NCBI RefSeq assembly: GCF_000214825.1
Contig: NC_015581.1
Location: forward strand, 806,001 to 870,000
Length of the DNA stretch: 64,000 nt
Direction: 5' to 3'
From: Thiomicrospira cyclica ALM1
GTDB taxonomy: Bacteria; Pseudomonadota; Gammaproteobacteria; Thiomicrospirales; Thiomicrospiraceae
Shown here piece by piece: positions 21,789-28,503 of the stretch. The notes beneath the pieces were generated by a model. That model had not been told where the DNA came from and did not search any database. It saw nothing but the letters and a program-made list of their open reading frames with translations. Within the stretch, counting starts at the first letter, position 1; each line of letters begins with the position of its first letter. The translations under genes and the position numbers were made by a program.

Positions 21789-22295
21789 TTAAGCTTCCGA
21801 CACTAGGGTGTTTTCGATGTAGATATCGTCAACTGGAACATCGCTATGTCCCATACGATTGCCCGTTTTCGCTTGGGCCATTTTGTCAACAATGTCCATG
21901 CCTTCAATGACTTCGGCAAACACCGCATAGCCCCAGCCATGTAAATCGGGTGAGCGATGATCTAAGAAATCATTGTCTTTAAGGTTAATAAAGAACTGTG
22001 AAGTAGCTGAATGTGGCGCTTGCGTGCGAGCCATAGACAAGGTGCCCCGTTTGTTTATTAGGCCATTGTCCGCTTCATTTTCAATGGCGGGTTGGGTTTT
22101 TTTCTGGTTCATCTCTGCGTCCAGACCACCACCTTGCACCACAAAATCCGGAATAATACGATGAAAAATCGTACCGTTATAAAAGCCGGACTCGGCATAG
22201 TCAATAAAGTTTTGTGCTGAAATGGGTGCCAACTCATGGTTTACTTTAATTTTAATGCTACCAATCGTAGTTTCAAAAGTTACAACATTCATCAT
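21789..22295 (-). CDS. ppiB: Peptidyl-prolyl cis-trans isomerase B (cytosolic cyclophilin)
   Basis: 168-aa cyclophilin without signal peptide that catalyses proline isomerisation in folding. Active-site blocks FHRIIPDFVVQGGG and MARTQAPHSATSQFFINL are intact. ATGs at 22295 and 22292 are both possible starts after AGGA. It precedes lpxH as in E. coli (ppiB-lpxH) and follows a periplasmic paralogue, so two cyclophilins stand in tandem. Confidence 0.94.
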   Translation of the reverse strand: MMNVVTFETTIGSIKIKVNHELAPISAQNFIDYAESGFYNGTIFHRIIPDFVVQGGGLDAEMNQKKTQPAIENEADNGLINKRGTLSMARTQAPHSATSQFFINLKDNDFLDHRSPDLHGWGYAVFAEVIEGMDIVDKMAQAKTGNRMGHSDVPVDDIYIENTLVSEA

Positions 22296-22373
22296 TTTGG
22301 TTAATCCTAGCAGGGGTTAAATTTTTGATCGCCTATGCTAAATCAATTGGTGATAGCTTGCACAACTTTTAGC

Positions 22374-22946
22374 CTATTGAATTTGACTAACGCGCTCGAT
22401 AATAACCGGGTTAATCGGCACATCTTGATAGCCATTCCGGTTGGTCGTTGGTTGAGTGCGAATTTGGTTGACCGTACGCATGCCATCAACCACGCGGCCA
22501 AATACGGTATACCCCCAAGCACGAGGTGTTTTTTCACGGAAATCTAGTGAACTGTTGTTAGCGACATTGATAAAAAATTGTGAGGTGGCTGAATGTGGAT
22601 CATTGGTGCGCGCCATAGCGATGGTACCAATACGATTTTGCAGACCATTATCAGCTTCATTTTGAATCGGATCGCGGGTAGGTTTGCGGCGCATTTGATC
22701 ATCTAAGCCGCCACCCTGAATCATGAAGTTGTCAATGACGCGATGAAAAATCGTGCCATCGTAATAGCCTGAATTAACATATTCTAAAAAGTTAGTAACA
22801 GTCAGTGGTGCTTCATTGGGGTAAAGTTCAATAATCATACTGCCGGCATTGGTTTCAACCAATACGCGGGGATTATCCGCTTTCACACTGGTGCTAAATG
22901 CCAGTGTTGCAGACATGGCTGCGGTAATAAAAGCGCGTCGTAACAT
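22374..22946 (-). CDS. ppiA: Peptidyl-prolyl cis-trans isomerase A (periplasmic cyclophilin)
   Basis: 190-aa cyclophilin with an N-terminal signal peptide (MLRRAFITAAMSATLAFS, cleavage probably after VKA at about residue 23). Core motifs FHRVIDNFMIQGGG and MARTNDPHSATSQFFINV are intact. Its length equals that of E. coli PpiA. It is first gene of the ppiA-ppiB-lpxH group and is divergent from glnS. Confidence 0.93.
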   Translation of the reverse strand: MLRRAFITAAMSATLAFSTSVKADNPRVLVETNAGSMIIELYPNEAPLTVTNFLEYVNSGYYDGTIFHRVIDNFMIQGGGLDDQMRRKPTRDPIQNEADNGLQNRIGTIAMARTNDPHSATSQFFINVANNSSLDFREKTPRAWGYTVFGRVVDGMRTVNQIRTQPTTNRNGYQDVPINPVIIERVSQIQ

Positions 22947-24790: not shown

Positions 24791-26167
24791 ATGGCTTTAC
24801 ACATATACAACACCGAAACGCGTCAGAAAGAAGTCTTTAAACCCATTGTGCCCGGCAAGGTTGGTATGTATGTTTGCGGAGTAACGGTGTACGACTATTG
24901 TCATATCGGTCATGCGCGGGTGATGGTTGTGTTTGATACGGTGGTGCGTCATATGCGCGCACGAGGACTTGAGGTTAAGTATGTGCGCAATATCACCGAT
25001 ATTGACGATAAGATTATTAAACGCGCACTCGAAAACCAAGAATCGGTGCAAAGCTTAACCGAACGTTTTATCACCGCCATGCATGAAGATGAAACCGCGT
25101 TGAATATTTTGCGCCCAGACATTGAGCCAAAAGCGACCGACTTTATCCCTGAAATTCAGCAGTTGGTTAACACCCTAATTGAAAAGGGGCATGCCTATGC
25201 CGCAACGAATGGTGATGTGTATTTTAAAGTGAAGTCCTTTGAATCCTATGGCCGTTTGTCGGGTAAAAAGCAAGACGAACTGGAAGCCGGCGCACGGGTA
25301 GAGGTGAATCCTAATAAGCAGGATCCCATGGATTTTGTACTATGGAAAGCCTCCAAAGCAAACGAACCCGCTTGGGATTCGGCTTGGGGGCAAGGCAGGC
25401 CTGGTTGGCATATTGAATGTTCGGCCATGTCCGGCTCGTGTATCGGTGAACGTTTGGATATTCATGGTGGCGGGATGGATTTGCAGTTTCCTCACCATGA
25501 AAACGAAATCGCGCAATCGGAATGTGCGCATGGCGAGCATTATGTTAATACCTGGATGCATGTCGGCTTTGTGCGTGTTGATAACGAAAAAATGTCCAAG
25601 TCGCTGAATAACTTTTTCACGATTCGTGAAGTGCTAAAAGACTATCACCCAGAAGTGATTCGTTATTTCTTGTTATCGAGTCATTATCGCAGCCCGTTGA
25701 ACTACACGATTGAAAACCTTGATATTGCTAAAACCAATTTAGCGCGTTTATACACCGCATTAGAAGCAGCGACAATCCAACCAGGCCTGGTAGCGGTAGG
25801 CACTGAGTTTGAAGCAAAGTTTAATGACGCGATGGATGATGATTTCAACACCCCGCAAGCAATGGCGGTATTGTTTGAATTGGTTAAAGAGGTCAATAAA
25901 ACGCAACAACCCGAGCTGGTGGGTTTGTTACAAAGTCTGGCGAATCGTTTAGGCTTATTAACAGAAACCCCTGAGTTTTTCTTTAAAAGCCAGGTTGGTC
26001 AGCCGGATGGGTTAAGCGATGAAGCGATTGAGGCATTAATTGTCGAGCGCACGCAGGCACGTGCGGATAAAAACTGGGCGCGTTCCGATGAGATTCGTGA
26101 TGACTTGTTGGCAAAAGGGGTCGAGTTGCTGGACAGTAAAGAAGGCACCAGTTGGCGTAGAGCCTAA
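24791..26167 (+). CDS. cysS: Cysteinyl-tRNA synthetase
   Basis: Class I synthetase that charges tRNA-Cys and uses a zinc ion. The 458-aa protein has Cys29 in [13 protein letters not shown] at 38-41, zinc-region motif WHIECSAMS and KMSKS at about 267-271. It begins 24 bp after glnS and is probably in the same operon. The glnS/cysS pair beside ppiA-ppiB-lpxH recalls E. coli cysS/ppiB. It contains one perfect and one near copy of the iterated palindrome. Confidence 0.96.
25781..25790. repeat. Iterated palindrome CCAGGCCTGG in cysS
   Basis: Perfect decamer within ACCAGGCCTGGT; codes Pro-Gly-Leu-Val in a poorly conserved linker. Confidence 0.9.
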
Positions 26168-26247: not shown

Positions 26248-26276
26248 TTGACAGCTAGATTAGCATTTATTAAAAT
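26248..26276 (+). promoter_or_regulatory. Strong sigma70-type promoter with no annotated gene downstream
   Basis: TTGACA (26248-26253), a 17-bp spacer and TAAAAT (26271-26276) form a near-consensus promoter. It lies in the 275-bp gap after cysS and points away from cysS toward a terminator 60-90 bp on, with no conventional protein gene in between. Confidence 0.75.
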
Positions 26277-26287
26277 GAGGGCTATTC

Positions 26288-26326
26288 ATGTTTCTTCATG
26301 AGTATCCTCCTTTAGTTATCTTTTGA
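26288..26326 (+). CDS. Possible 12-residue micro-ORF within the candidate small RNA
   Basis: ATG at 26288 opens a frame MFLHEYPPLVIF ending in TGA, with GAGGG at 26277-26281 seven bases upstream. The frame could be chance. If transcription starts at the predicted position, the GAGGG would not be in the RNA. I list it because the promoter, short frame and terminator form a self-contained unit. No function can be proposed. Confidence 0.2.
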   Translation: MFLHEYPPLVIF

Positions 26327-26335
26327 TAATTTTTT

Positions 26336-26363
26336 AGCCAGGCCCAGTGCCTGGTTTTTTTTT
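26336..26363 (+). terminator. Rho-independent terminator of the short unit after cysS
   Basis: AGCCAGGC (26336-26343), loop CCAGT and GCCTGGTT (26349-26356) form an 8-bp stem with one G-T pair, followed by nine T. It may also serve cysS. Confidence 0.9.
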
Positions 26364-26442
26364 GCTAAAACACCATTATTTTTAAAACTTATTGGTGGAA
26401 ACACAAGGCATACGGATCGGGTTTGACTATTGAATGGTTTGG

Positions 26443-28503
26443 CTATTGAGTGGCTAAATTAGTCGTTTGTTTAATTGGACGCATTAAGACCGAGAGACGC
26501 AGTGGCGGGAGCCAATCAGCCTGACTGTGATCCGTGACAGTCGCATGGTGGCTTGTTCTCAACATAAAATCATAAACCATTTTATGTTCGAGAACTTGAC
26601 GTACATAACGTCGCGTTTCCATGAATGGTAGGGTATCGATCCATTGATCCGCTTCAAAATTATCCATTTCGTTTAAGTTTGCGACCCATTGATTGACACG
26701 CGATGGCCCTGCATTATAGGCTGCAATCGCAAGAACAGGATGGTCATAGCGGTTAATGAGTTCCCCTAAATATGCGCTACCTAATGGAATGTTAATCTCG
26801 ATGTTGAAAACATCATTAGGGTTGAAGCGAGTTATACCTTGTTTTTGCGCGGTTTCACGTGCTGTAGCCGGCATAAGCTGCATTAAACCCTGAGCACCTG
26901 CTGGCGAACGCGCATGCGGGTAAAAAGCACTTTCACGTCGCATAATGCTGTAAATAAGACTCGCCGGAAGCCTGTGACGCTCTGCTTCGTGTGTTATTAA
27001 TTCTGAGTAGGGTGTCGGAAAGCGTTTATCTAATGCGTCCCATGCTTGAATTTGTCCTAGGGTGGTAATAGCTAAGTGATGGAGCTCCCAAGTATGTGCC
27101 ATGGCGGCGAGGTCGGCAAAGTCATCGGGGTCAGCGATATTAAGTAGGTGGTGCCATTCTCGGTGTGCATTGATACGCCATTCAATTTCTACTAAGGCTG
27201 AAATTAGCTGTAAGCTTGGGTATTGATCTATGAGCTCTAAAGCGCGCTGTTCGGTAGTTTGTACTGCAAAGTCGTTAGAACGATTAATAGAATAGGGTTT
27301 TCCCAACTGGTCTGCGGCTAAAAAGCCGTAATAATGACGTTCTGTGGCCAGTTGTTCATAAAGAGGTAAATATGCTTTATCGCCAAGCTCAGCTAAGGCC
27401 CTAGCACGCCAGTATCGCCATTGAGACTGATTGGCAAGCGTTTCTGGCATTTCAGCGGTTAATCGCTCCAGTTCAACCCATTTGTTATAACGTATCGTAA
27501 AACGAGCTTTCCATATGAGTGTGGCTTCATCTAAGTCATTACGTCCTAACTGGTTAAGGGCTTGCCAGCCTTGTTCATCATAGCGATATGTCAGATGCAA
27601 TCCTGCTTCACGCTGCAGATTTACAATTTGCTCATGGCTAAGAAGGCGATTAAAAGGAGGTTTTTTCTTAAGAGATAAAACAGTTTCTGGATCACGTCGG
27701 CTCAAAGCGAGTAAACCGGTGTAAGCAACATCTGCTTGAAGGGGTTCTGGAATAAGGTTTAAATCAAAATTGCCAATCTGATTAGGTTGTTGAACCAAAT
27801 TTAACCAAGCCTGGCTCCAGTTTTTATGTTGGCTAGGTATTAAGTGAATAACACTGGGGATTTGGTCGTGGCGTTGTTGTGCAAATAATAGACGCAGTCG
27901 GGCAATTAATGCATCGGTATCAATGATGCCTTGTTGATGAAGATGGCGTTCAATTTCTCGACAACTGCTATGCAAATTAAGGTTCGTTAACCAAAAATTT
28001 TGCCAGTCATTCAAAGGAATCTGTTGGTTAGCCTGGTTAGCTAATAACGATTGTTTTGCAAGGCATTGCTGTTGTTGATTTGAAGGTGTTAGCTGAGTAT
28101 CTAAGATATTTGACCAAGCCTGCTGATTTGCCAAGCTTTCAAGATAGCGTTGCTGAAGTCGAGCGCTAAGACCTAATTTTGGGTTTATTTTAATAAATTC
28201 GACAATAGCTTGTTGATTTGCGCTATCAAGATTTTCTAGTAGGGTTAAATAGTTGCCCATCGGGAAGAGTGGGTGCCCATGAAATTGCTGATTGAATGCT
28301 ACTATTTGTTCCAGATTCCTTGCTTTGGATGCGGCCCACCAAGACTCAAAATCAGCTTTTAGTTGTATGTTGGTCGGTTTGGCTTGGAAAAAGACCTTTT
28401 CATCTATTGACTGGTTGGCAGATACAGGAGCAACCATGGCGATCAGAGAGGTAGCACCAACCCAAATTATTGCAAATAGAAAACCTAGTTTGACCTTCAG
28501 CAA
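26443..28503 (-). CDS. slt: Soluble lytic murein transglycosylase (Slt70 type)
   Basis: Periplasmic enzyme that cleaves glycan strands to 1,6-anhydromuropeptides. The 686-aa product has a signal peptide (hydrophobic from about 7 to 23, cleavage near VSA), a long alpha-helical superhelix rich in tryptophan, and a C-terminal SLT domain with catalytic Glu524 in MRRESAF followed by GAQGLMQLMPATA and AAYNAGPSRV. The start is TTG 28503. It lies 1 nt after mltD, so the two lytic transglycosylases are one unit. Confidence 0.94.
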   Translation of the reverse strand: MLKVKLGFLFAIIWVGATSLIAMVAPVSANQSIDEKVFFQAKPTNIQLKADFESWWAASKARNLEQIVAFNQQFHGHPLFPMGNYLTLLENLDSANQQAIVEFIKINPKLGLSARLQQRYLESLANQQAWSNILDTQLTPSNQQQQCLAKQSLLANQANQQIPLNDWQNFWLTNLNLHSSCREIERHLHQQGIIDTDALIARLRLLFAQQRHDQIPSVIHLIPSQHKNWSQAWLNLVQQPNQIGNFDLNLIPEPLQADVAYTGLLALSRRDPETVLSLKKKPPFNRLLSHEQIVNLQREAGLHLTYRYDEQGWQALNQLGRNDLDEATLIWKARFTIRYNKWVELERLTAEMPETLANQSQWRYWRARALAELGDKAYLPLYEQLATERHYYGFLAADQLGKPYSINRSNDFAVQTTEQRALELIDQYPSLQLISALVEIEWRINAHREWHHLLNIADPDDFADLAAMAHTWELHHLAITTLGQIQAWDALDKRFPTPYSELITHEAERHRLPASLIYSIMRRESAFYPHARSPAGAQGLMQLMPATARETAQKQGITRFNPNDVFNIEINIPLGSAYLGELINRYDHPVLAIAAYNAGPSRVNQWVANLNEMDNFEADQWIDTLPFMETRRYVRQVLEHKMVYDFMLRTSHHATVTDHSQADWLPPLRLSVLMRPIKQTTNLATQ

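Follow-up and report, generated by a model that had tools for sequence, protein, structure and literature searches.

Downstream of cysS in the genome of Thiomicrospira cyclica ALM1, a stretch of about 80 bases very probably encodes a real and hitherto undescribed small regulatory RNA (sRNA) of sulfur-oxidising bacteria, as judged from its sequence and those of its relatives. In what we consider the best and a probable reading, it is an independently transcribed, trans-acting sRNA, and its predicted targets in the genus of the window (g1) are the mRNAs of two outer-membrane proteins, one of the FadL type and one a porin encoded in a gene cluster. Computation revealed a unit conserved across the family of the window (f1) and, within g1, a specific complementarity to these mRNAs. 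The RNA itself is predicted to be new, and the kind of regulation predicted for it, silencing of outer-membrane protein messages by an sRNA, is known. The window is the whole 64,000-nucleotide stretch of DNA analysed here, and its genome (G000) consists of 1,932,455 bases in one contig.

Promoter, fold and terminator of the unit

The unit occupies positions 26248 to 26363 of the forward strand. A −35 box, TTGACA (26248–26253, coordinates checked by script), is separated by 17 bases from a −10 box, TAAAAT (26271–26276). The predicted RNA (26283–26363) was delimited by the positions of the promoter and terminator and by its homologues, and its unmapped 5′ end at 26283 was inferred from the −10 box, which it follows by seven bases. 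In the predicted fold, hairpin 1 (26283–26304, 8 bp, loop TTTCTT) is followed by the single-stranded linker CCTCCTTT (26306–26313, confirmed by script), by hairpin 2 (26314–26331, 7 bp), and by an intrinsic terminator (26336–26363) with an 8-bp stem and a run of nine T, which a script check placed at 26355–26363. A sequence-only reading of this DNA had proposed this promoter, a terminator hairpin with nine T and two 7-bp stem-loops; the first two were confirmed, the promoter with its spacing kept among relatives, and the stem length was right for hairpin 2 but not for hairpin 1. The folding energy of 26283–26364 was −23.9 kcal/mol, compared with −8.4 ± 2.2 kcal/mol for shuffled sequences (z −7.1), and none of 200 shuffles was equally stable.

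Upstream lies cysS (cysteinyl-tRNA synthetase; 24791–26167, identified by ORF reading) on the same strand as the RNA, and the convergent neighbour on the minus strand (26443–28503) is a soluble lytic transglycosylase-like (slt-like) gene, named by eye. As had been claimed, ORF reading found no conventional gene within the unit, and no conserved long ORF was present. The unit thus has what marks the sRNA class: its own promoter and intrinsic terminator, without a long ORF. A minus-strand gene beginning at the same ATG was considered and rejected, its frame being short and, by eye, not kept.

Promoter-like and terminator-like sites were no more frequent than expected by chance in the surrounding region (14 and 10, compared with 17.9 ± 3.9 and 9.6 ± 3.4 in shuffles, respectively), and the promoter of the RNA was the only 11-of-12 consensus match within this 9-kb region. 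The unit was judged to be real because of its conservation, which is the decisive evidence: the strict pattern TTGAC-16/18-TAnnnT was found in 32 of the 33 homologous copies counted, all from outside the genus g2, in the same position and with a spacer of always 17 bases.

At gathering scores, an Rfam scan of the window returned only tRNAs, none of them over the RNA, and a scan of the RNA across 20 homologous loci returned three tRNAs and nothing else, in agreement with the earlier claim that no known RNA family is matched. The best sub-threshold matches by score were RseX (RF01401), PrrF (RF00444), and SorX (RF02784), whose scores of 30.7, 23.2, and 21.8 compare with gathering scores of 50, 90, and 46.6, respectively; their likeness to the RNA lies in alignments that include the terminator. 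In the open-access literature, we found no paper pairing an sRNA with Thiomicrospira, Hydrogenovibrio, or Thiomicrorhabdus.

Distribution of the unit

A search of 57 genomes, in which regions were fetched for five weaker matches, located the unit in 35 of 36 f1 genomes. G021 was the sole f1 genome without it, and a cysS match was also absent there. In the 21 genomes from other families, no E value below 0.013 was obtained. A covariance search, which had been suggested as a check, was run on 369 genomes sampled from the class under stricter filters that lose some weak matches; four genomes were matched, all of them listed f1 members. Among 88 local loci collected by cysS and other searches, a set that left out the known copies L032, L034, L035, and L038, only two f1 loci matched at E < 0.01; four copies of the genus g2 gave E values of 0.055 to 0.49. 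The g2 genomes, four of the 35, have a short variant in which GTATTTTCTTCATGAGTATCCTCTTATG is followed by the terminator (L112:1105–1167 and L113 to L115).

Of 38 core-bearing loci, some of which are duplicates of one genome, 32 have cysS directly upstream in the same orientation, and 28 contain a slt-like gene. The flanks fetched for L007 and for the four g2 copies contained no cysS match. In two Thiomicrorhabdus MAGs (L036 and L037), cysS was present and the core was absent behind it.

Sequence constraint among relatives

The RNA contains a nearly invariant core of 24 bases, CATGTTTCTTCATGAGTATCCTCC, which lies outside the terminator. In an alignment of 33 distinct copies, anchored on the core and excluding the four g2 copies, ten-column blocks around the core were 92–100% identical, the next block 75%, and the rest 36–61%; identity at the core itself is inflated because the copies were collected by that core. 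The earlier proposal of a small RNA is thereby backed by a promoter, a core, and a terminator that are conserved across the family.

The stems differ in how they are kept. In the terminator helix, both sides changed in 4 of 5 counted pairs of a 32-row alignment. In the same alignment, hairpin 1 showed no compensatory changes, only U-G to C-G in three rows and some losses, and it is therefore conserved as sequence but not proven as structure. Hairpin 2 takes a genus-dependent form: it was missing in the genus g7, and in g2 the seed was moved into a loop, which holds UAUCCU (one copy of each was folded). Conservation of the stems, proposed earlier as a test, thus held for the terminator, held for hairpin 1 without compensation, and failed for hairpin 2 in g7. 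The anti-Shine-Dalgarno motif CCTCC is not universal either, being replaced by CCTCTTA in g2.

In the promoter spacer of L020, L027, L035, and others outside g1, we observed a dyad, TTAG/TAAG-N6-CTAA (e.g. ATTAGAAAACGCTAA), which by eye is absent in g1 and g7. This dyad is possibly an operator for a regulator of the RNA.

Complementarity to translation starts in g1

The reverse complement of 26288–26323, AAAGATAACTAAAGGAGGATACTCATGAAGAAACAT, contains a Shine-Dalgarno sequence, a spacer, ATG, and the two lysine codons AAG and AAA. Since the core thus complements a translation start, AGGAGGATACTC-ATG-AAGAAA, the RNA appeared to be antisense to translation starts. The predicted target-pairing region (26288–26323), delineated by whole-genome pattern searches, scoring against 386 starts, and shuffles, spans hairpin 1 from the loop through the 3′ arm, then the linker, and runs into hairpin 2. 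The exposed anti-Shine-Dalgarno linker noticed by the sequence-only reading was thus supported, with the amendment that the pairing region is wider than CCTCCTTT. Because the region includes hairpin arms, base pairs are predicted over much of its length in the free RNA, and hairpin 1 conceals part of it (−7.3 kcal/mol).

BLAST detected one non-self place in the window's own genome at E < 1, with 19 bases at 95% identity; it lies upstream of a porin gene (Pfam Porin_4), within the leader. When the complement of a 19-mer was sought in nine g1 genomes with up to three mismatches, 11 non-self matches were obtained; a reversed control pattern gave 10, so the number of matches is no excess, and genes were inspected at the 11 matches only. 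Nine of the 11 were in the sense orientation upstream of a start codon, and six belonged to outer-membrane genes: FadL-type in G001, G003, and G005, a porin in G000 and G004, and a porin-like gene in G008. The remainder were two exported proteins, a methyltransferase-like protein, and two sites without a gene. In G000 and G004, the only non-self match was the leader of an orthologous porin, 81 and 122 bases before the start, respectively. FadL was assigned from Pfam PF03349 in the G001 protein, and the porin-like genes of G008 and G002 from resemblance and synteny, the G008 protein having no Pfam match. These outer-membrane targets were chosen after the fact from whole genomes. The conserved region is accordingly complementary to mRNAs encoded elsewhere in the genome, in g1 only. 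As a separate observation, starts of DsrE-like proteins also recur among the g1 matches.

Other patterns were less informative. The strict antisense target AAGGAGGATAN{0,6}ATG, sought in 21 genomes, gave five scattered sites, and its nine other matches were the opposite strand of the RNA gene; no target therefore matches the whole core exactly. The short pattern ACTAAAGGAG gave 15 non-self matches in the nine g1 genomes against 23 for its reversed control; about half lay at starts, several of them of exported proteins, and one was the G004 porin. Duplex energies alone were too noisy without a background to serve as a target test.

FadL-type start regions

Start regions were scored by gapped complementarity to the RNA core against 386 starts from 476 kb of the window's own genome. 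This background comprises the window and 21 fetched stretches, some of which were picked for FadL or porin genes, and it includes the genome's own FadL and porin. The numbers of background starts scoring as high as FadL were 3, 0, 25, 0, 0, 0, 10, 63, and 32 of 386 in G000 to G008, respectively. The mean complementarity of FadL in the nine g1 genomes was 41.9, compared with 28.9 ± 2.5 for shuffled sRNAs, and none of 1000 shuffles reached it. GGAGGA and ATGAAGAA are kept in the strict sRNA shuffles. Moreover, each genome's own sRNA variant matched FadL better than the variants of other genera in 9 of 9 g1 genomes. The shuffle and cross tests used 27 of 30 FadL loci; excluded were G009, which has a differing RNA variant, and G017 and G024, for which the start had been misassigned.

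When whole RNAs were co-folded with the FadL starts, these ranked 8, 0, 119, 0, 3, 0, 28, 90, and 31 of 386 in G000 to G008, respectively, against a background of G000 starts that included its own FadL. Co-folding covered all nine g1 genomes and 9 of 18 others, most of which were picked for high earlier scores. For G001, G003, and G004, the duplex was predicted to form with hairpin 1 opened and to span the Shine-Dalgarno sequence, the start codon, and the first codons. FadL was weak in G007 and G002, where the co-folding ranks were 90 and 119 and the complementarity counts 63 and 25 of 386.

The porin cluster and other porins of g1

The matched porin lies in a cluster ordered PhnD-like gene, porin, exported metallohydrolase, sensor kinase, and sigma-54 response regulator, which is complete in G000 and G004 and present in parts in G001, G002, and G008. 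The cluster loci are L276:1897–8044, L277, L244, and L245. Upstream of the cluster porin in G000, G004, and G001 there is an element, TTTGGCAC, resembling the sigma-54 consensus. The porin leaders of G000 and G004 hardly align between this promoter element and the Shine-Dalgarno sequence, though both carry the site.

When the cluster porin was scored with a 150-base leader, 1 (the porin itself), 3, and 0 of 386 starts scored as high in G000, G001, and G004, respectively. None of the 386 reached the porin-like gene of G008, and the cluster porin-like gene of G002 scored 44.5. The mean for the cluster porin in five genomes was 47.1, compared with 35.0 ± 2.6 for shuffles, and none of 2000 shuffles reached it. 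Two of these porins were not themselves pattern matches, that of G001 having been found by protein search and that of G002 beside a match; 5 of 2000 shuffles reached these two. For the neighbouring PhnD-like gene, 568 of 2000 shuffles reached the observed value. The cluster metallohydrolase was rejected as a target, since only G002 stood out (39.0; others 23.5–34.0) and 141 of 2000 shuffles did as well.

The signal did not extend to the other g1 porins, for which 42, 225, 21, 109, and 109 of 386 starts scored as high in G005, G006, G008 (L162), G002 (L168), and G007, respectively. Taken together, the porin start regions of eight g1 genomes, mostly these other porins, were reached by 102 of 500 strict shuffles. 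The target prediction that had been suggested for the linker thus pointed to the FadL-type gene and the cluster porin of g1, and elsewhere it gave no confirmed targets.

Start regions in other genera

The matching pattern found 11 non-self places in 17 genomes outside g1 (26 for the reversed control), none at an outer-membrane gene. The mean for FadL over 18 non-g1 genomes was within the strict shuffles (107 of 1000 reached it), and the own variant beat the g1 variant for FadL in only 3 of these 18 genomes. Covariation of sRNA and target, a supporting rather than an obligatory feature, was thus seen in 9 of 9 g1 genomes and 3 of 18 elsewhere, and it does not hold across genera. Porin starts of 20 non-g1 genomes were reached by 335 of 500 shuffles.

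Single cases nevertheless stood out. By complementarity, FadL ranked 0 to 2 of 342 in G029, G011, G013, and G028, as against 195 to 241 in six others. In the G023 sample, an outer-membrane-like protein (L328) with a signal peptide and a C-terminal F, and without a Pfam match, was top of 342 starts by complementarity and second by co-folding; a PDB search with 416 of its 429 residues found nothing. In its locus (L328:16974–19305), two genes of exported DsrE-like proteins, recognised by eye, precede it. A TolC-like start (Pfam OEP) in G010 carries AAGGATACTCATATG and had a co-folding rank of 33 of 342. This start was among eleven further weak matches, four of which lay at protein starts (the TolC-like, a Tat-type, a MazG-like, and a 112-aa protein); the remaining seven were within coding sequence or lacked, at the site, the start of a 70-codon frame. 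All are regarded as leads. Two candidates were discarded: the pattern AATCAGAGGAG, which in 19 other genomes gave 10 non-self matches against 3 for its control, none a recognised outer-membrane gene, and a Hpf-like ribosome factor in the genus g3, whose start matches the RNA of the window and not g3's own variant.

The RNA might be conceived as the mirror image of a generic outer-membrane protein start (SD, spacer, AUG, Lys, Lys) and as a family-wide, sigma-E-independent brake on outer-membrane proteins, with a seed partly held in a hairpin that would have to open on the target; the core would then be frozen because many such mRNAs constrain it at once. We regard this as rather doubtful, and the comparisons outside g1 argue against outer-membrane targeting as a general property of the family. 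An alternative, also rather doubtful, is that the RNA is a real trans-acting sRNA whose conserved targets are other mRNAs, the outer-membrane matches in g1 being side targets or chance. Consistent with it, targets are unconfirmed outside g1 despite the nearly invariant core, and there are matches at the starts of YceI-like (score 47), DsrE-like, Tat-exported, and MazG-like proteins, all named by eye. The shuffle tests of FadL and the cluster porin in g1 speak against it, as does the top start of the G023 sample, which is again outer-membrane-like.

Improbable readings: tiny mRNA, cysS terminator, or ribosomal mimic

That the product is instead a peptide, encoded either by the five-codon ORF ATG-AGT-ATC-CTC-CTN-stop (MSILL) or by a longer MFLHEYPPL frame, appears very improbable. 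In the window, the shorter frame reads ATG-AGT-ATC-CTC-CTT-TAG (26298–26315). Leucine 5 and the stop are retained through different codons (CTC, CTT, and TTA; TGA and TAG) in 36 of 37 copies; as the bases of codons 1 to 4 served to collect these copies, only codons 5 and 6 test the frame. However, L114 has lost the stop, g7 has ACG or ACA in place of the first ATG, and by eye there is no Shine-Dalgarno sequence between the predicted start and either ATG. Furthermore, none of the core's wobble positions varies in the 32-row alignment, which points to constraint at the RNA level.

Still less probable is that the unit is a mere cysS terminator region with a fortuitous promoter and no separate RNA function. 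Its usual place directly behind cysS (32 of 38 loci) and promoter and terminator counts that are not above chance in the area would fit; a promoter spacing shared by 32 of 33 copies, the nearly invariant core outside the terminator, and the four g2 copies and L007 without a cysS match in their fetched flanks do not. Least probable of all, the linker CCTCCTTT, which resembles the 16S anti-Shine-Dalgarno tail, would mimic the 3′ end of 16S rRNA, bind Shine-Dalgarno sequences generally, and tune global translation, against which stand a complementarity reaching well past the Shine-Dalgarno sequence in the best targets and the loss of CCTCC in g2.

Proposed mode of action

As a trans-acting sRNA with outer-membrane targets in g1, the RNA would be about 80 nt long, with a hairpin at its very 5′ end, a terminator and U tail at its 3′ end, and a nearly invariant middle antisense to initiation regions of the type SD-spacer-AUG-AAG-AAA. 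In g1, it is predicted to pair with the start region of the FadL-type mRNA and with the cluster porin mRNA, at the start region in G001, G002, and G008 or in the leader in G000 and G004. Pairing over the start region would block ribosome binding and probably speed mRNA decay. Because the site in the G000 and G004 porins lies far upstream in the leader, another route would be needed there, such as decay or interference with ribosome loading. Transcription of the unit, a hairpin 1 that opens upon contact with the target, assistance by a chaperone (e.g. Hfq), repression as the outcome, and any inducing signal are inferred. The nine-T tail is present at the 3′ end of the RNA; no Hfq-like motif was found in the scanned loci, which cover about a quarter of the window's genome, so this result says little.

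RybB pairs through a free 5′ end, and the window RNA differs from it in having a hairpin there. The promoters also differ, that of RybB following the sigma-E consensus and that of the window RNA being of the sigma-70 type (TTGACA-17-TAnnnT). CyaR is built from a hairpin, a linker that contains CCUCC, and a terminator. In alphaproteobacteria, Cuckoo RNAs and other CCUCC-type sRNAs carry C-rich anti-Shine-Dalgarno motifs in hairpin loops, whereas the motif of the window RNA lies in a linker, and none of them was matched in the Rfam scan. RybB, a sigma-E-dependent sRNA of Salmonella and E. coli, resembles the window RNA in being intergenic and in its target class as predicted here; it lowers ompA/C/D/F/N/S/W and fadL in Salmonella (PMC1804206). 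CyaR is CRP-dependent and pairs with the Shine-Dalgarno sequence of the outer-membrane mRNA ompX (PMC11795201). No match to RybB or CyaR was listed for the window RNA in the Rfam scans, and it differs from both in sequence, from CyaR in the core; by analogy it is predicted to work like both, and by the Rfam test it is a member of neither.

The RNA would thus form a sharply defined, undescribed family with testable targets in sulfur-oxidising bacteria. It suggests sRNA control of outer-membrane proteins, including FadL, outside enterobacteria by a different RNA with a different promoter. It would also exemplify a nearly invariant seed of which a part is stored in a hairpin.

Other features of the window

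Two further arrangements were observed in the window. At 2432–2847, a pair of tRNA genes, tRNA-Val(tac) and tRNA-Asp(gtc), occurs in two tandem copies. At 21789–22946, there are two tandem peptidyl-prolyl isomerase-like genes, identified by eye, the upstream one of which has a signal sequence.
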